A stretch of 40,448 nt of DNA from a bacterium (lineage in GTDB: Bacteria; DUMJ01). Position 1 is the stretch's first letter; each line of letters begins with the position of its first letter. The notes under the pieces are model-generated. The model saw only the letters and a program-made list of their open reading frames with translations. It was not told where the DNA came from and ran no database searches. The stretch lies in contig JAOACC010000021.1 in assembly GCA_026418035.1 (NCBI GenBank), forward strand, positions 1-40,448, read 5' to 3'. Shown here piece by piece: positions 210-36,498 of the stretch. The translations under genes were made by a program, and so were the position numbers.

Positions 210-2312
210 ATGAATAGAGTGTGGAAAAGGCTAGTTGGGCTCATTTTGGCGGTAATGCTTATTTGTATACCGCTATTTACTAATGCCCAAACGGTCAATG
301 CGAACAAAGATGGCTGGTTAGATGAGGTGGTCTTCTTCCCAGAGAAGGACTTAGCTAAAGCTATCGATATGATGACCAAGGGGGATATGGACATCTTCTT
401 CAAGGATATTGATGACCCGGTTCTATTTAGGAGGGTTAAAGAGAACCCGCAACTTGCCTACTCAATGTCTTTTGGTCTCTATAATGAACTGACTTTTAAC
501 CCAGTAGGCCCAGAGTATAAGGATGGTAGACTTAATCCTTTTAGTAATCCAAAGATAAGAGAAGCAATGAACCTAATAGTAGATAGACAATACATTGTAG
601 ATGAGATAATGGGTGGACTTGCTACTCCCAAGTTTGTCCCTCTAAGTAAAGGTTTTCCTGAGTATGAGAGATACAAGACTACAATTTCTACTATAGAAAC
701 TACCTACAAGTATAGTTTTGCAAGGGGACAAAAGATCATATCTGATGAGCTTAAGAAGATGGGTGCAGAGCTAAGGGGCGGTAAGTGGTACTATAAAGGA
801 AAACCAGTTACAGTAAAATTCATAATTAGAACAGAGGATAGGAGAAAGGCTATAGGTGACTATGTCTCTGGCCAACTAGAAAAGCTAGGATTCACGGTAG
901 AAAGGATGTATAAGACATCTAGAGAAGCATCTCCTTTATGGATAAGAGGAGAGCCATCAGAGGGACAGTGGGACCTCTATACTGGTGGTTGGATCACTAC
1001 GGTAGTTACTAGGGATGATGCTGATAACTTCCAATATTTCTACCTGCCAGATTCACCAATGTCCTATTCGCCATTATGGAAGGCTTATACACCAACTAAA
1101 GAATTCAGAGATTTAGGAAATAAGTTAGCTAATAAAGACTTTACAAGTATGAAAGAAAGAAATCTATTTATGACTAAGGCACTACACCTTGCAATGAAAG
1201 ACTCAGTAAGGGTTTGGTTGATTGACCAGAACTCTGCCTGGGTAAGGAGAAAAGGCGTAGATGCAGTAGCGGACTATGCGGGTGGATATTCAGCAAGAGT
1301 GTGGCCCTACACATTGAAGTTTGCCGATAAGACTGGTGGAAGGATGAGAGTTGGAAGTACAGAGGTCATTATAGACCCATGGAATCCAGTCGCTGGTTCT
1401 AATTGGATCTATGACAATATGCTTGTTGAGGCGACAATAGGTAGGGCATTTATATGGCATCCACAGACAGGATTACCAATCCTATTTAAGATAAAGAGCG
1501 CAGAGGTTACAGCCCAAAAAGATGTCCCAACATTTAAGAATCCAGATACAACTTGGCTAAAGCTTACCAAAGTTGATAAGGTTACAGTTCCCGCTGATGC
1601 CTGGTACGGATGGGATGTAAAGAAGCAGGATGTAATAACTGCAGGAGAAGCAGGAGTAAAAGAGGCAAAGGTCAAAGTAGTTGTGAACTACGATGACATC
1701 ATTGGTAAGGATAAGTATCATGATGGCTCAGTTATGAGCACTGCGGACTTTATAGTAGATTGGATTATAGGATTTGAAAGAGCAAGTAAGGACAGTAAAC
1801 TCTATGATGAAGCCTTTGTAAATAGGTTTAATTCATGGAGAGAACAGTTTGTAGCATGGAAGATAGTAAAGACAAATCCACTTGTTATTGAATACTATAT
1901 CAATTTCTCTGAGCTCGATGCTGAGCTTACAGCTACCGCATTTGCTGTCTCTGGATATTATCCATGGCATCTATATGCCCTTGGAATAAGGGCAGAAGAA
2001 GAAGGTAAACTTGCATTTAGTGCAGATAAAGCTAAGGTAAAGAATGTGGAGTGGATGAACTATATAGGTGGACCGAGCTTAACTGTTCTTAAAGATGTGG
2101 TAGAGAGGTCTGAAAAAGAGGGTTATATACCATTTAAGAACTTTGTAGGAAAATACGTAGACCCATCAGTAGCTAAAGAAAGATTCTCTTCTATTAAGAA
2201 GTTCTATGAAAAATATGGACACTTCTGGGTAAGCAATGGTCCATACTTCTTAGAAAAGGTAGATGTAGTAGCCCATACCGCATTGCTTAAGAACTCCAAA
2301 TTCCTAAAGTAA
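210..2312 (+). CDS. ABC peptide-type substrate-binding protein, permuted family 5
   Basis: This is probably the extracytoplasmic binding protein of a dipeptide/oligopeptide-type (SBP family 5) importer. Residues 1-31 form a signal peptide (basic start, hydrophobic core, cleavage near NAQTVNA). The order of the two halves is unusual. Residues about 35-375 resemble the second half of a normal family 5 protein (a 'LDEVVFF' start, the 'NPKIREAMNLIVDR' segment and a 'VRWLIDQ'-like end). Residues about 385-700 resemble the normal first half ('DPWNPVAGSNWIYD', then 'YHDGSVMSTADFI', then 'NGPYFLEK'). At 700 aa it is longer than DppA/OppA (about 530). From memory, a subfamily with this order exists in other bacteria. 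It leads the operon with two permeases and two ATPases; a terminator follows it. The ligand cannot be read from sequence and could be a peptide or an oligosaccharide. Confidence 0.88.
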   Translation: MNRVWKRLVGLILAVMLICIPLFTNAQTVNANKDGWLDEVVFFPEKDLAKAIDMMTKGDMDIFFKDIDDPVLFRRVKENPQLAYSMSFGLYNELTFNPVGPEYKDGRLNPFSNPKIREAMNLIVDRQYIVDEIMGGLATPKFVPLSKGFPEYERYKTTISTIETTYKYSFARGQKIISDELKKMGAELRGGKWYYKGKPVTVKFIIRTEDRRKAIGDYVSGQLEKLGFTVERMYKTSREASPLWIRGEPSEGQWDLYTGGWITTVVTRDDADNFQYFYLPDSPMSYSPLWKAYTPTKEFRDLGNKLANKDFTSMKERNLFMTKALHLAMKDSVRVWLIDQNSAWVRRKGVDAVADYAGGYSARVWPYTLKFADKTGGRMRVGSTEVIIDPWNPVAGSNWIYDNMLVEATIGRAFIWHPQTGLPILFKIKSAEVTAQKDVPTFKNPDTTWLKLTKVDKVTVPADAWYGWDVKKQDVITAGEAGVKEAKVKVVVNYDDIIGKDKYHDGSVMSTADFIVDWIIGFERASKDSKLYDEAFVNRFNSWREQFVAWKIVKTNPLVIEYYINFSELDAELTATAFAVSGYYPWHLYALGIRAEEEGKLAFSADKAKVKNVEWMNYIGGPSLTVLKDVVERSEKEGYIPFKNFVGKYVDPSVAKERFSSIKKFYEKYGHFWVSNGPYFLEKVDVVAHTALLKNSKFLK

Positions 2313-2343
2313 TAAATAAGGGAGTTTTTATTTAGATTTTTAG

Positions 2344-2375
2344 AAACCCGGAGGGTATTGCCCCTCTGGGTTTTT
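2344..2375 (+). terminator. Intrinsic terminator after the binding-protein gene
   Basis: AAACCCGGAGGG (2344-2355) pairs with CCCTCTGGGTTT (2362-2373 region) around a short TATTG loop, with one G-T wobble, and a run of five T closes the stem. Its place between the binding protein and the permeases would give more binding protein than membrane components. Confidence 0.85.
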
Positions 2376-2386
2376 GATTGTATAAT
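2358..2386 (+). promoter_or_regulatory. Internal promoter overlapping the terminator
   Basis: TTGCCC (2358-2363) and a perfect TATAAT (2381-2386) are 17 bp apart. The -35 lies in the loop and 3' arm of the terminator hairpin, so one DNA segment would serve as terminator for the binding-protein transcript and promoter for the permease genes. Confidence 0.55.
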
Positions 2387-2400
2387 AGAATGCAAAAAGG

Positions 2401-2407
2401 AAGGAGG
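2401..2407 (+). promoter_or_regulatory. Ribosome site that points to an ATT start
   Basis: AAGGAGG sits ten bases before an in-frame ATT at 2418. The ATG touching it (2408) opens a frame that ends after four codons, and the first conventional in-frame start (TTG 2466) is almost 60 bases away and would remove the N-terminal amphipathic/TM start typical of DppB. Confidence 0.55.
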
Positions 2408-2417
2408 ATGATTATCG

Positions 2418-3473
2418 ATTAAGAGTTTATTAAAATACATATTAAAGCGTGGTTTATCCCTATTCTTGACTGTATTAGTGGCGGTATATTTAACCATAGT
2501 TATAGCTAATGCTGGTGGATATGTTGATAAATTGGTAGAGACTGAGCTTAGAATGAATATAGCAATGGCTTTTAAAGATGACCCTACTTTTAGAAACCTG
2601 TCTGAAGAAAAACAGAAGGAACTTTTAGAAAGTACTTTTAAGTATGAGATGAGAAGAAGGGGTTTAGATTTGCCGTTTCCTATTAGGAGTATGTATCACC
2701 TTAGAGATGCGATTACCTTAAATCTTGGAAGGGCTATGTATATGACAAGTGACAGTGGTTCTTCTTTAGTAAGGAACATTATTCTAGAAAGACTTCCGGT
2801 GACAGTCCTTCTATTTACAACAGCAACTGTTGTAAATTTCTTTTTACATCTATTCCTAGGATTAAGATTATCTAGAAGATATGGTTCTTTCTGGGATAAA
2901 CTTGTTATAGCTCTTTCACCAACATCAGTCATACCCGGATGGTTTTATGGAATATTCCTGATAATGATTTTCTACTCTTGGTTACATATACTACCAGCAG
3001 GAGGCTTAGTAGACTATCCTCCACCCTCTGGAACTATACCTTACTTTTTAAGTGTCTTAAAACATATGATATTACCTTTATCATCTTGGATTATAGCTAG
3101 TCTATTTTTAGGTATATATCAAGAGAGGACATTCTTTCTTATATACTCTACAGAGGATTACGTAGAAGTTGCTAAAGCAAAGGGCCTCACATCAAGACAG
3201 ATAGAGACTAGATATCTTTTAAGGCCAGCACTTCCTCCAGTAATTACAGGATTTGCCCTTAGTGTTATTTCATCTTGGACTGGGGCAATAGTGACTGAGG
3301 CGGTCTTTAATTGGCCAGGATTAGGACAGGTAATATCTCAGGCAATTAGTTACTTTGATGCTCCGGTGATAGTTGGAGTAACTGTTGTCTATGCATATCT
3401 TTTAGCAGTAACTGTTCTTGCTCTAGATATTATATATGCAATAGTAGATCCTAGAATGAGGATACAAGGATAA
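2418..3473 (+). CDS. ABC peptide transporter permease, DppB/OppB type
   Basis: First inner-membrane subunit of the importer. The frame upstream of TTG 2466 reads IKSLLKYILKRGLSLFLTVL, which matches the usual DppB start 'LLKYILKR', so I place the start at ATT 2418 (351 aa); TTG 2466 would give 335 aa. The second half has the BPD_transp_1 fold with about five membrane spans and the EAA loop 'EVAKAKGLTSRQIETRYLLRPALP' region that docks on the ATPase, followed by 'VEAVFNWPGLG'-like sequence typical of the family. An extracytoplasmic segment with many charged residues follows TM1. The stop is 2 bp before the next gene. Confidence 0.9.
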   Translation: MKSLLKYILKRGLSLFLTVLVAVYLTIVIANAGGYVDKLVETELRMNIAMAFKDDPTFRNLSEEKQKELLESTFKYEMRRRGLDLPFPIRSMYHLRDAITLNLGRAMYMTSDSGSSLVRNIILERLPVTVLLFTTATVVNFFLHLFLGLRLSRRYGSFWDKLVIALSPTSVIPGWFYGIFLIMIFYSWLHILPAGGLVDYPPPSGTIPYFLSVLKHMILPLSSWIIASLFLGIYQERTFFLIYSTEDYVEVAKAKGLTSRQIETRYLLRPALPPVITGFALSVISSWTGAIVTEAVFNWPGLGQVISQAISYFDAPVIVGVTVVYAYLLAVTVLALDIIYAIVDPRMRIQG

Positions 3474-20476: not shown

Positions 20477-22213
20477 ATGACACTAAAATCTACTCTTGTG
20501 GATGAGAGTTATAAGGCTAGTTATGGTGTTGATGCATATGGAGAAGACCTTATCTTTGAAAAAATCTTCAATAAGTTTATAGCATGTAGAGGTGATTGGT
20601 CTGTTTTTCAACTGCTTTTAAAGCTAGATGAAGACTTCTATCTAAATGTTGGTAAAAGACCAAACTTTTCACCTAAGGGTCCCATAAGAAATGTAAGGAT
20701 AGAATGTGTCATATCTAATCTGGAGACGAGAATTTATCCTATTGGATTTATAGAAGATGACGACAGGGTATATAAAGCGGACTTACTACTTAATGATGAG
20801 GTTATCTTTGTAGAAAAGGGAAAGATACAGCCAGTTTGGATTGAGATACCAATTCCTAGAGACATCCCCCCTGGAGATTATAAAGGAAAAATAAGGATAT
20901 ACACCCAATGTATGTTTGAAGATGAAGAGTTGATAAAGGATTTTGACTTTAGCATCTTAGTAAAAGATGTAGAACTTCCTAAACCTAAAGATTTTAAATT
21001 TTATCTTGACCTTTGGCAACATCCTTCTAATATAGCCCGTAAACATGAAGTTTGGCTTTGGAGTGAAGAACATTTTAAGGTTTTGGAAAACTATGTGAAG
21101 TCTTTATCGGAACTAGGACAAAAGGCAATAACTATAATAGCTTCTGAGATTCCTTGGTCGGGGCAGAGATGTTATCGTGTAAAGAATTACCCTTCAGACC
21201 TTTTTGAGTATAGTATGATTCGAGTTGAAAAGGATGAGTCTGGATATCACTATGACTTTTCACCTGCTGAAAGATACATAAACCTATGTATGAAGTATGG
21301 TATCGATAAAGAGATAGAGGTCTTTGGCCTTACAAATATATGGCTTGACCCTGAATATGGGTATGGTGCTCTGGCTGATGACTATCCTGATGGTATAAGG
21401 ATAAGATACTATGATAGGATCGATGGATCCTTTAAGTACATTAGAAGTGGAGAAGATATAAAGGCATATATAAAGGCACTTGAACAGTTTTTTATAAAAA
21501 GAAATCTTATAGATAGGGTTAGAATAGTGGCGGATGAGCCTGGAGATATAGAGAGATATAGAAGAAGTTTAGATACTATTAGAGAAATAGCTCCTAACTT
21601 TAAGTTTAAATCTGCGATAAACCATCCAGAGTTCATAGAGGAATTCAAAGATAGGATATCTGACTTTGTCCCTGTATTACCGGGGGTATGTGAAAAGTGG
21701 GATATACTTAAGGGATTAAAGGGTAAGATAGATGGACGTGTACTGTGGTACGTTTGTTGCTGGCCTCCATATCCAAATACATTTATTAGCTCACCATTAG
21801 TTGAGAGTAGATTGATAGGTATACTGACAGCCTTCTTAGAACTTGATGGCTTCTTAAGATGGAACTATACAGTATGGCCAGAGAATCCAAGGGAGCGTAT
21901 ATCTTATAGATTCCCATACTGGAAGGCAGGGGACACCAACTTTGTATATCCAGCTAAGGATGGAAGGCCTATACTTACCCTAAGATATAAAAATCTGAAA
22001 AGAGGAATAGAAGATTATGAGCTCATAATGATGCTTAAAGAAAGGAATGATAACCTGCTAGAGACATTGTGGGATAAGATATTTAAGATTAGAGATGTAA
22101 GAGCATTTCATCCATCTTCTGGTAAAAGCCCAAATGAGCTCTATAGTTTAGATAGCAGAGATTATTATGAATTTAGAGTATCCATACTTAATGCTTTAGA
22201 AGAAAGAACTTAG
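20477..22213 (+). CDS. GH123-like glycoside hydrolase, DUF4091 domain
   Basis: 578 aa with no signal peptide, so probably cytoplasmic. An N-terminal beta-sandwich-like region (about 1-165) is followed by a TIM-barrel and the DUF4091 block ('WYVCCWPPYPNTF', 'GFLRWNYTVWPENP', 'GIEDYELIMML'). In the barrel 'RIVADEPGD' places D353-E354, matching the adjacent Asp/Glu pair used by GH123 beta-N-acetylgalactosaminidases in substrate-assisted catalysis. The substrate is unknown and could be a HexNAc-containing glycan. TAGGAGGT (20463-20470) sets the start. Its stop overlaps that of the convergent ABC gene by 4 bp. Confidence 0.8.
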   Translation: MTLKSTLVDESYKASYGVDAYGEDLIFEKIFNKFIACRGDWSVFQLLLKLDEDFYLNVGKRPNFSPKGPIRNVRIECVISNLETRIYPIGFIEDDDRVYKADLLLNDEVIFVEKGKIQPVWIEIPIPRDIPPGDYKGKIRIYTQCMFEDEELIKDFDFSILVKDVELPKPKDFKFYLDLWQHPSNIARKHEVWLWSEEHFKVLENYVKSLSELGQKAITIIASEIPWSGQRCYRVKNYPSDLFEYSMIRVEKDESGYHYDFSPAERYINLCMKYGIDKEIEVFGLTNIWLDPEYGYGALADDYPDGIRIRYYDRIDGSFKYIRSGEDIKAYIKALEQFFIKRNLIDRVRIVADEPGDIERYRRSLDTIREIAPNFKFKSAINHPEFIEEFKDRISDFVPVLPGVCEKWDILKGLKGKIDGRVLWYVCCWPPYPNTFISSPLVESRLIGILTAFLELDGFLRWNYTVWPENPRERISYRFPYWKAGDTNFVYPAKDGRPILTLRYKNLKRGIEDYELIMMLKERNDNLLETLWDKIFKIRDVRAFHPSSGKSPNELYSLDSRDYYEFRVSILNALEERT

Positions 22214-25921: not shown

Positions 25922-27493
25922 ATGAATAATATTGAACTAAACGAACAATTTAAGAGAGCCATATATTTGATGGAGAATACAGACAAGAATTTATTCATTA
26001 CTGGTAAAGCCGGAACGGGAAAGTCTACCCTTCTAAATTATTTCCGTTCTATAACTAAGAAAAATATCGTTGTCCTAGCTCCCACTGGTGTCTCTGCATT
26101 AAATGTTGAAGGAGAAACTATTCATTCCTTTTTTGGCTTTAAGCCAAATATAACTATACAAAATATAAGTAAACTTTCCTCCAAAAAGAGAAAGCTTTAT
26201 GAGAAGTTAGACACCATTGTAATTGACGAAATATCAATGGTTAGGGCAGACCTCTTAGATTGCATTGATTACTTCCTCCGATTAAACGGAAGAGAAAAAG
26301 GGGAACCTTTTGGTGGAGTACAGATGATATTTATAGGAGACTTATATCAGCTTCCCCCTGTAGTTACCTCAAAAGAGAAGAGGTTCTTCACTGAAAGATA
26401 CAAGAGTCAATACTTCTTTGATGCAGATGTATTTAAAGAGATATCTTTGGAATTTATAGAACTAGAAAAGGTATACAGACAGAAGGATGAGAGATTTATT
26501 AAACTTCTGAATGAGATTAGAAATAACACTATAACTGAGGAGAGTCTGAATATCTTAAATAGTAGAGTTGGGATAAACCCTCCTTCAGACTCTGATTATG
26601 TAGTCTATCTTACTCCTCTAAATGAGACGGTAGATAAGATTAATAGTGAAAAACTGGATAAACTTAGAGGGAAATTATACACCTGGGAGGCTTATATAGA
26701 GGGAGACTTTGAGGAAGGCTCATACCCTGCAGATGTGATACTTCAGATAAAAATAGGTGCCCAAGTAATGATGTTAAACAATGATTCTAGGGGAAGATGG
26801 GTGAATGGTTCTATAGGAAAGGTCGTTGGTGTAAGGTCTGGTAAAGGCATCGAGGATGATACTATTGAGGTTCAATTTCCAAATGGAGATATAGAGGATG
26901 TGTTACCCCATACCTGGGAGATATTCCACTATAGGTATAATGAAAAGACACAGATGATAGAGACAGAGGAGATAGGTTCATTTACACAGTATCCAATGAA
27001 ACTTGCCTGGGCGGTTACTATTCATAAGAGTCAGGGTAAGACGTTTGATAAAGTTATTATAGACCTAGGAAGAGGGGTTTTTACCCCTGGACAGGTCTAT
27101 GTTGCATTAAGTAGGTGTACGTCTTTTGAAGGGATCTTTCTTAAAAAACCGATAAAGAAGTCACATATCCTTTTAGATAGGCGTATTGTAGAGTTTCTTA
27201 CTAAGTTTCAGTACCAATTATCTGAAGAAAAAATTCCTCTAGAAGAGAAGATAAGTATAATCAAAAAAGCCATAGAGGAAAAAGCAAACCTGTTTATAAC
27301 TTACTTAAAACCCAATGATGAAAAATCTAAAAGAGTTATAAAACCCTGTGAAATAGGTGAATTCTATTACAATGGTAAGATGTTCCTTGGTGTAGCTGGT
27401 TATTGTTATAGCAGGAAAGAAAATAGGACCTTTAGAATAGATAGGATCTTGGATTTAAAAATAATTGAAGGAGGTGTTCAAGATAAAGACTAA
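25922..27493 (+). CDS. Pif1-like DNA helicase with C-terminal WYL domain
   Basis: 523 aa. Superfamily 1 helicase core: Walker A GKAGTGKST (28-36), 'APTGVSALNVEGETIHSFFG', Walker B 'IVIDEISMV', 'QMIFIGDLYQLPPV', 'VYRQ', and motifs V/VI 'AWAVTIHKSQGKTFDKV' and 'YVALSRCTS'. These match the Pif1/RecD2-like 5'-3' group. The last 65 residues ('LFITYLKPN', 'RVIKPCEIGEFYYNGKMFLG', 'ENRTFRIDRI') fit a WYL domain, a ligand/nucleic-acid-sensing module. The ribosome site is weak. It overlaps the next gene by about 29 bp and heads an operon of metabolic genes, an odd association. Confidence 0.88.
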   Translation: MNNIELNEQFKRAIYLMENTDKNLFITGKAGTGKSTLLNYFRSITKKNIVVLAPTGVSALNVEGETIHSFFGFKPNITIQNISKLSSKKRKLYEKLDTIVIDEISMVRADLLDCIDYFLRLNGREKGEPFGGVQMIFIGDLYQLPPVVTSKEKRFFTERYKSQYFFDADVFKEISLEFIELEKVYRQKDERFIKLLNEIRNNTITEESLNILNSRVGINPPSDSDYVVYLTPLNETVDKINSEKLDKLRGKLYTWEAYIEGDFEEGSYPADVILQIKIGAQVMMLNNDSRGRWVNGSIGKVVGVRSGKGIEDDTIEVQFPNGDIEDVLPHTWEIFHYRYNEKTQMIETEEIGSFTQYPMKLAWAVTIHKSQGKTFDKVIIDLGRGVFTPGQVYVALSRCTSFEGIFLKKPIKKSHILLDRRIVEFLTKFQYQLSEEKIPLEEKISIIKKAIEEKANLFITYLKPNDEKSKRVIKPCEIGEFYYNGKMFLGVAGYCYSRKENRTFRIDRILDLKIIEGGVQDKD

Positions 27494-34670: not shown

Positions 34671-34692
34671 GGACAGGCATCTTTGCCTGTCC
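34671..34692. repeat. Perfect palindrome, REP-like
   Basis: GGACAGGCA (34671-34679) and TGCCTGTCC (34684-34692) form a perfect 9-bp stem with a TCTT loop. The following sequence (GTATAACTTATATT) has no clean T run, so it is a poor intrinsic terminator. From memory, hairpins with nearly this sequence are scattered as repeats in several bacterial genomes. It lies in the only gap between the beta-glucosidase operon and the receptor gene. Confidence 0.65.
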
Positions 34693-34755
34693 GTATAACT
34701 TATATTTAGAGTTAAATACCGCATAGGATATATTATGTGAGGAGGAGTTAAGACT

Positions 34756-36498
34756 ATGGACAAGATTAGTGTAAGAATTATGTTAGTTGTTTTTATCTTA
34801 GTTCTGATTTTAACCCTTACTAGTATATTTGTATCGAATCCTTTAATATTAATCCCTTTAGCCCTTGTTCTTCTTGGTGTTTCTCTATTTGTTATTCAGA
34901 GTCTTCTGAAGCCCTTATCTAGCATCCTAGATGCTTATAAAGAGAAGGATGGAGCGATTAAAAAGTTTGAGGATTTTGCTGGCCTTATAGAGAGTATGTC
35001 TAGGGAGGGATTTAAGAGTTTTTTGCCAGAAGAAAAGGATAGCATAACTGGTAAGATTTCTTATGCCATTAATTCACTCTTAAAGAGTACAAATAATCTT
35101 ATAAGAGAGCTTGATTCATTCTCGGAGAGGATCCTTAATTCAAGTAGACAGTTGAACGATACTATCAGACAGACATCGGACACTATGGAAGAAGTCAATT
35201 CTGCACTTCAAAATCTTACTCAGGAGACAGATAAATTGAATCTTAATATTGAGGAGATAGCTCAGAGGAGTAAAGAGGTTGAATCTCTGGCTTATGAAGG
35301 AATCTCGAAGATAAATAGTATGACAGAACAGATGCGAGATATAGCCCAAGCCACAGGTCATACGATGGCTATGATTAATGAACTAGACAAAGCCTTTAAA
35401 GAAATAGAAAATGTGGTAAAGGTTATATCTAGCATAGCGGAGCAGACAAATCTTCTGGCGTTAAATGCAGCTATAGAGGCAGCCCGAGCTGGTGAACACG
35501 GTAGGGGTTTTGCTGTTGTAGCGGATGAGGTGAGACAGTTGGCATATCAGACTCAAGATTTTCTTGAAAAGATTAAGGTTATGATAGGTGAACTTTCGGA
35601 AAGGATGACAAATACAGTCAATACAATCTCTTCTAGTAATCAACAGGTAGAAAGAGGAGAAGTAATCTTACAAGAGGTGACTAATACATTCAAGATAATT
35701 ACTGATAACATAAAAGATATAACCGACAGGATTGAGAGAACCGCTGAGTCTAGTGGTGAGATAACTAGAGGTAGTAAGGATATAGCATCCGCTTCTGACC
35801 AACAGTTAAATGTAAATATGCAACTTGCAGATATGGCTAATAATTTGGCTGATATAGCTACAAAATTAAAAGATAGGTTAGCTGAAACGCAGATAGGGGC
35901 TCATAATCTAGAGATTGATATAGACAAATTTGACAGAGAATTCTCTAGTATTGACGAGATAAGAAAGAGAGCTCTTAAGAATGAGTTGAAGATTAACAAT
36001 GAGTTTGTTATAGGGGTTATAGCAAGGCTTGAACCTATAAAGGGTCATAAGTTCCTCTTTGAAAGTTTAAAGCTACTTCTTCCTAAATATAGGAATCTTT
36101 TGTGTCTTGTAGTTGGCGATGGTTCTTTAGAGAAAGAACTAAAGCAGATTGTGGCTAAAGAAGGTCTTTCAGATAGGATTCGTTTCCTTGGATATAGGAG
36201 TGATATACCTAGGCTTCTCAGTATAATGGATTTAGTTACTCTTACCTCTGAAAAAGAGGGAGTTCCTCCAAGGATTATATGTGAGGCATTAGCTGGTAAG
36301 AAACCTGTGGTAGCTACCAATACTACCGGAGCCAGATATCTAGTTCAGGATGGTATAAATGGTAAACTTGTTAACTATGGTGATGTCAGGGCATTAGCAG
36401 AGGCAATAGAATTTTTTGTCAAGAATCCAGAGAAGTGTAGAGAATTTGGAATAAATGGAAGGAATATTATAGAAGGCTTAATAAGAGGAAAGAACTAG
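34756..36498 (+). CDS. Chemoreceptor (MCP) signalling domain fused to a GT4 glycosyltransferase C-terminal domain
   Basis: 580 aa. Two adjoining TMs (about 8-50) have almost no external loop and no clear HAMP. A long coiled coil (about 100-375) carries the MCP hairpin tip '[20 protein letters not shown]' near residue 235, the CheA/CheW contact site. At residue about 384 the sequence changes to '[10 protein letters not shown]', like the 'HNGID..KF' linker of GT4 enzymes. It continues as the complete second Rossmann domain: '[15 protein letters not shown]', '[12 protein letters not shown]', '[15 protein letters not shown]', '[20 protein letters not shown]', 'DGINGKLV'. The GT acceptor-binding half is absent. 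A nucleotide-sugar-sensing receptor is my inference. GGAGGAG at 34741-34747 sets the start. Confidence 0.85.

Follow-up and report, generated by a model that had tools for sequence, protein, structure and literature searches.

A single 580-residue frame in the window, the whole 40,448-nucleotide stretch of bacterial DNA analysed here, joins the membrane anchor and signalling hairpin of a chemoreceptor (MCP) to the C-terminal, donor-nucleotide half of a GT4 glycosyltransferase (GT). Our analysis indicates that the fusion is a genuine gene, carried full length by all three genomes of its genus. We propose, with a probability of roughly 45%, that it encodes a membrane-anchored receptor in which the cytoplasmic C-terminal GT4 donor half acts as a sensor of a nucleotide or nucleotide sugar, with the flagellar CheA receiving the signal.

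Layout of the fusion protein

The frame is uninterrupted and opens on an ATG (ORF reading; Table 1). Pfam MCPsignal (PF00015) matches residues 181-349 (E=3.6e-44, 151 bits against a cut-off of 34.6) and Glycos_transf_1 (PF00534) matches residues 408-570 (E=2.2e-34, far above its cut-off), so the original prediction of one frame joining a receptor to half of a GT is borne out. It had also called two transmembrane helices without a periplasmic sensor, and indeed hydropathy and AlphaFold2 (AF2) leave a turn of about three residues between the helices and no periplasmic domain. The hairpin tip was wrongly placed near residue 235, and lies at E247-G251.

Table 1. Features of the fusion gene, in window coordinates.
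Feature	Position	Strand	Basis
Ribosome-binding site AGGAGG	34740..34745	+	10 bases before ATG, read directly
MCP-GT fusion gene, 580 aa	34756..36498	+	single ORF; Pfam MCPsignal and Glycos_transf_1; full-length orthologues L011, L012
Two transmembrane helices, residues 2-25 and 29 to about 50	34759..34905	+	Kyte-Doolittle hydropathy, AF2
17-residue helical extension after TM2, residues 56-72	34921..34971	+	alignments; AF2 model
HAMP-like segment, residues 74-120	34975..35115	+	alignment with HAMP-bearing genus MCPs; AF2 break at 85-96
MCP signalling hairpin, 38H class, residues 121-378	35116..35889	+	arm residue counts against genus MCPs
Hairpin tip E247-G251, full CheA/CheW-binding consensus	35494..35508	+	alignment
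Linker including IDIDKF (residues 387-392) and helices preceding the first strand	35890..35985	+	26-GT4 alignment, model
GT4 C-terminal (donor-nucleotide) Rossmann domain, residues 411-577, without crossover helix	35986..36486	+	AF2, Foldseek, alignment
R424...K429, GT4 diphosphate-binding pair	36025..36042	+	sequence comparison
E501-X8-E510, EX7E motif with one-residue insert	36256..36285	+	alignment, orthologues

The joint between the two parts falls where it had been predicted, at the GT4 inter-domain linker: the fusion sequence aligns there with the (Y/H)NGIDxxKF of canonical enzymes, and the AF2 model places linker helices at residues 389-396 and 398-410. The domain beyond it had been described as a complete GT4 C-terminal Rossmann domain. 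The full Rossmann domain with its six strands is present, but the last helix, which ties the two halves of GT-B enzymes together, is missing, and in an alignment with 26 GT4 sequences the protein stops about 20 residues early. In WaaB this helix joins the N-terminal domain (PMC10556518), and its absence here agrees with that of the N half. That the receptor has replaced the acceptor (N-terminal) domain is likewise upheld, and a search of the genus for an orphan GT4 N-half, the PF13579 family lying outside that search, returned none save one gene cut at a contig end.

A structure prediction, one of the checks that had been proposed, supports an intact fold: modelled alone, the GT half reaches a pLDDT of 92.9 and a pTM of 0.90, with all six strands. 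Its best Foldseek matches are HepE structures, including the complexes with UDP and UDP-glucose (TMq 0.83-0.85), and its structural matches also include 5i45, the C-terminal domain of LpcC, indicating that GT4-type C-halves fold alone. The full-length model was built from GT rows only, since mixed MCP and GT alignments (A2, A3) misplaced the C-terminal arm of the MCP; its coiled coil is of low confidence, with a mean pLDDT of 73.5.

For the donor pocket we compared 26 canonical GT4 sequences and the three fusion orthologues. Of 50 consensus columns the fusion retains 38, the canonical enzymes averaging 39.8; R424, K429 (invariant in 29 of 29 sequences), G454-D455-G456, R481, D483, I484, E501 and E510 are all retained. 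In GT4 enzymes UDP sits in the C-terminal domain, the R/K pair contacting the phosphates, the second Glu the ribose and the first Glu the sugar (PMC10556518, PMC10579960); in WaaB these are K195/R188, E276 and E268 (PMC10556518). Contacts to the nucleotide also come from the N half in many GT-B enzymes, for example from F13, G15 and R18 of WaaG (PMC10579960), and the affinity of a C half alone may therefore be low.

The eight-residue spacing of the Glu pair, noticed in the original prediction, is real: it is found in all three orthologues, against a spacing of seven in 26 of 26 canonical relatives. Together with three further departures from consensus (G524T, E528Y and P541Y), the insert may have altered the donor pocket. 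Moreover, both this insert and the missing crossover helix speak against catalysis, in support of the earlier suggestion that activity may have been lost. A donor for this half was not found among the GT paralogues of the same genome, the best of which reaches 34% against 42% in other lineages.

Neck and length class of the receptor half

In the AF2 model helix 2-25 is followed by one continuous helix over residues 29-84, which contains a 17-residue extension missing in all other MCPs aligned. The topology then becomes HAMP-like, with a helix, a break at residues 85-96 and a second helix. Pfam HAMP gave no match to the fusion even at E<10, while a 15-residue stretch aligns with the HAMP AS2 motif DEIGxLxxxxN of other MCPs. 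Methylation-site consensus is weak, with two partial matches, one of them outside the usual methylation region, compared with six in Tsr, and this weakness is a point against the proposed reading.

Heptad length classes and their pairing with pathways have been described (PMC6943060). We took arm length as a residue count, the first arm running from HAMP AS2 to the tip and the second from there to the end. Relative to the other membrane MCPs of the genus, the two arms of the fusion are shorter by 21 and 21 residues; the same count places 40H-type relatives 14 below the genus set and E. coli Tsr (36H), our control, at -28/-28. From these counts the fusion is 38H, its hairpin having the symmetry of a heptad class, and the other membrane MCPs of the genus form one 44H set. 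This mismatch in length class counts against the proposed reading, since arrays are reported to form only within one length class, and 14 residues can separate classes (PMC6759762). From TM2 to the tip, however, the fusion spans 195 residues, compared with 199-201 in the membrane MCPs of the genus and 185-188 in most 40H relatives. Judged by residue counts, the neck extension would thus restore a nearly equal height from membrane to tip.

Conservation, rarity and chemosensory partners

The two orthologues are L011 (JACIXS010000238, genome G002; 82% identity) and L012 (CALGNK010000014, genome G001; 76%). Upstream, GH3 and PdxA-like genes are shared with both and a DUF1537 kinase with L012; downstream, the genes of L011 and L012 are not syntenic with the window. 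We can therefore rule out an assembly chimera, which had been named as the finding that would overturn the prediction, since two other assemblies encode the fusion whole behind the same upstream genes. In L012 only 24 bases separate the GH3 stop from the fusion start, so co-transcription of the two genes is likely there.

Upstream of the fusion, in the gap that separates it from the GH3 gene, the window carries an inverted repeat with near-perfect arms (34671-34692, GGACAGGCA-TCT-TTGCCTGTCC), which is single copy in the genome and was not seen in the intergenic stretches of L011 and L012. It is possibly the terminator of the GH3 transcript, with no T run after it. Elsewhere in the window lie a GH123 glycoside hydrolase (20477-22213) with ABC transporter genes nearby, and a PIF1-like helicase (25922-27493) with a WYL domain at its end, which overlaps the start of a gene for a DUF1576 protein.

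Identity is lowest over residues 1-100 (51-64%), and the GT half, at 82-88%, ranks with the best-conserved parts of the fusion. NG86 dN/dS values are 0.06-0.09 for the MCP part (residues 101-375), 0.06-0.07 for the GT part (384-575) and 0.28-0.39 for residues 1-100. By this measure purifying selection on the GT tail equals that on the signalling domain.

A search for the MCPsignal plus Glyco_trans_1 architecture across genomes, proposed earlier as a check, places the fusion in this genus only: it was found nowhere else among 386 genomes across bacteria, three of which are the genus, and 51 genomes of one further phylum. The contig scan for relatives used six short peptides and detects close relatives only, and distant or independent MCP-GT fusions may thus exist elsewhere. 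Among the genomes compared, none falls between the genus and the domain level, so that the genus has no close relatives there. The plasmid matches listed were MCP-only, with none covering 80% of the query. A literature search returned no MCP-glycosyltransferase fusion and no paper naming both Pfam families. Two apparent second fusions were rejected: the GT match of L078, which lies within an open frame of 556 aa, is an ordinary 411-aa GT4 ORF, and a match in G348:C90 spanning residues 185-571 is an ordinary 359-aa GT4 in L105.

The genus encodes flagellar FliM/FliN, CheR, CheW and CheA. G001 has a single CheA, encoded on the contig that also carries FliM/FliN and CheR, and since that genome carries the fusion, the fusion can use only this flagellar-cluster CheA there. 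A role in another CheA pathway, which the original prediction had left room for, is thus unlikely in general. In the genus genome G000 the CheA match on C59 reaches the contig end and is about 32% like the G001 CheA; C64 ends at a cheR, and the gap that follows probably holds the flagellar CheA of G000. A second chemosensory cluster occurs in G002 (C130:6845-18166), and the same searches did not find it in G001. Its members are an MCP-like protein without an evident transmembrane helix, CheR, several CheW domains and a CheA frame of 916 aa, whose CheW match contains one in-frame TAA. This cluster may be contamination, G002 being 5% contaminated.

Candidate inputs and known systems

What, then, would such a receptor respond to? 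Having no periplasmic domain, it needs another input, and we place a cytoplasmic sensor first because this absence is combined with a donor pocket that is conserved and under strong selection. In our model the input domain would be the GT4 donor half, with sensing in place of catalysis. Its old donor pocket, beside the hairpin's HAMP-like base, would bind a cytosolic nucleotide or nucleotide sugar of the UDP/GDP type; this would alter how the C-terminal hairpin arm packs and change CheA activity at the tip, so that the sugar-nucleotide or energy state would be reported to the flagellar motor. The cell may then steer by its own sugar-nucleotide supply. The original prediction of an intracellular UDP/GDP-sugar receptor is in this way partly sustained: the fusion is conserved and under selection, its donor-pocket consensus is kept, and its sensor slot is a known one. 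We infer ligand binding, the identity of the ligand and the coupling to CheA.

The same observations could be read differently. If the GT half were a docking domain for a partner protein or a membrane lipid, positioning or coupling the receptor while the signal came from the partner, a folded domain under strong selection with an altered catalytic motif would also fit, and hairpin symmetry suggests that this domain lies near the membrane face. Many GT4 enzymes are, moreover, peripheral membrane proteins. Docking alone would not need a donor-pocket consensus kept as in canonical enzymes, however, and we regard it as rather unlikely. The input might instead be the two-helix membrane anchor or the HAMP-like segment, reading membrane or energy state, with the GT half only tuning the response; the transmembrane hairpin and the HAMP-like turn are both present in the AF2 model. 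Yet it is residues 1-100 that are conserved least and the GT half that is conserved far better, which makes an input at the anchor improbable.

Retention of both Glu residues and the R/K pair would suit a protein that is still an enzyme, either pairing with a separate acceptor half, as in split glycosyltransferases such as Alg13/Alg14, or transferring or hydrolysing sugar alone at the receptor array. Against this stand the lost crossover helix, the EX7E spacing changed in every orthologue, and the search of the genus outside the PF13579 family, which turned up no orphan N-half beyond the gene truncated at a contig end; we consider it very improbable. Occurrence in one genus only is what might be expected of an accidental fusion or assembly error with a useless tail, but three assemblies with the fusion at full length, upstream synteny and the low dN/dS of the tail leave this with virtually no chance, and the orthologues refute it. 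Sensing by the GT half is supported by the donor-pocket residues, kept as in canonical GT4s, and by analogy with the hemerythrin and CZB sensors that occupy the same slot after the hairpin.

A bolder proposal, which we put forward tentatively, is that this may be the first chemoreceptor for intracellular nucleotide sugars, in which a donor half without acceptor half and catalysis reports supply to the motor, a lengthened neck bringing the tip to about the height of another length class. If the GT half binds nucleotide sugars, the protein would link the supply of cell-envelope or glycan precursors directly to motility, and would be a natural case in which an enzyme was divided at a domain boundary and one half became a receptor domain. 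More generally, it offers a test case for whether different heptad classes share one array when neck length compensates.

The closest parallels are MCPs with a C-terminal hemerythrin domain (PF00015 + PF01814) of the DcrH type, the published precedent for this sensor slot (PMC9388753). Like the fusion, they place a globular cytoplasmic ligand-binding domain directly after a membrane hairpin; they differ in carrying a diiron domain rather than a GT4 donor half, and in being 40H rather than 38H. Three such proteins appear in our comparison (L074, L077, L081), and L077 and L081, with a short stretch between their transmembrane helices, also resemble the fusion in having no large periplasmic domain. 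MCPs with a CZB domain (PF13682) likewise bear a C-terminal cytoplasmic sensor after the hairpin, although domain and ligand are unlike those of the fusion. One occurs in the genus (L064, G001:C36, ORF 997-3315 on the minus strand); besides its C-terminal CZB zinc domain it shows a periplasmic dCache_3 sensor and a HAMP match below threshold, and its contig carries two other MCPs. With the GT4 enzymes HepE/Alr3699 (4xso, 4xsr), PglA, BshA and WaaB the fusion has in common the C-terminal Rossmann half, the donor-pocket residues and the linker, but it departs from them in having no acceptor half, no crossover helix and EX8E in place of EX7E. Finally, the 38H receptors of Magnetospirillum and Azospirillum, as described in PMC6759762, combine a 38H hairpin with an extra helix between the membrane and the signalling domain, just as the fusion does; the passages on them describe no GT domain, and the linker of the fusion nearly restores 44H length.
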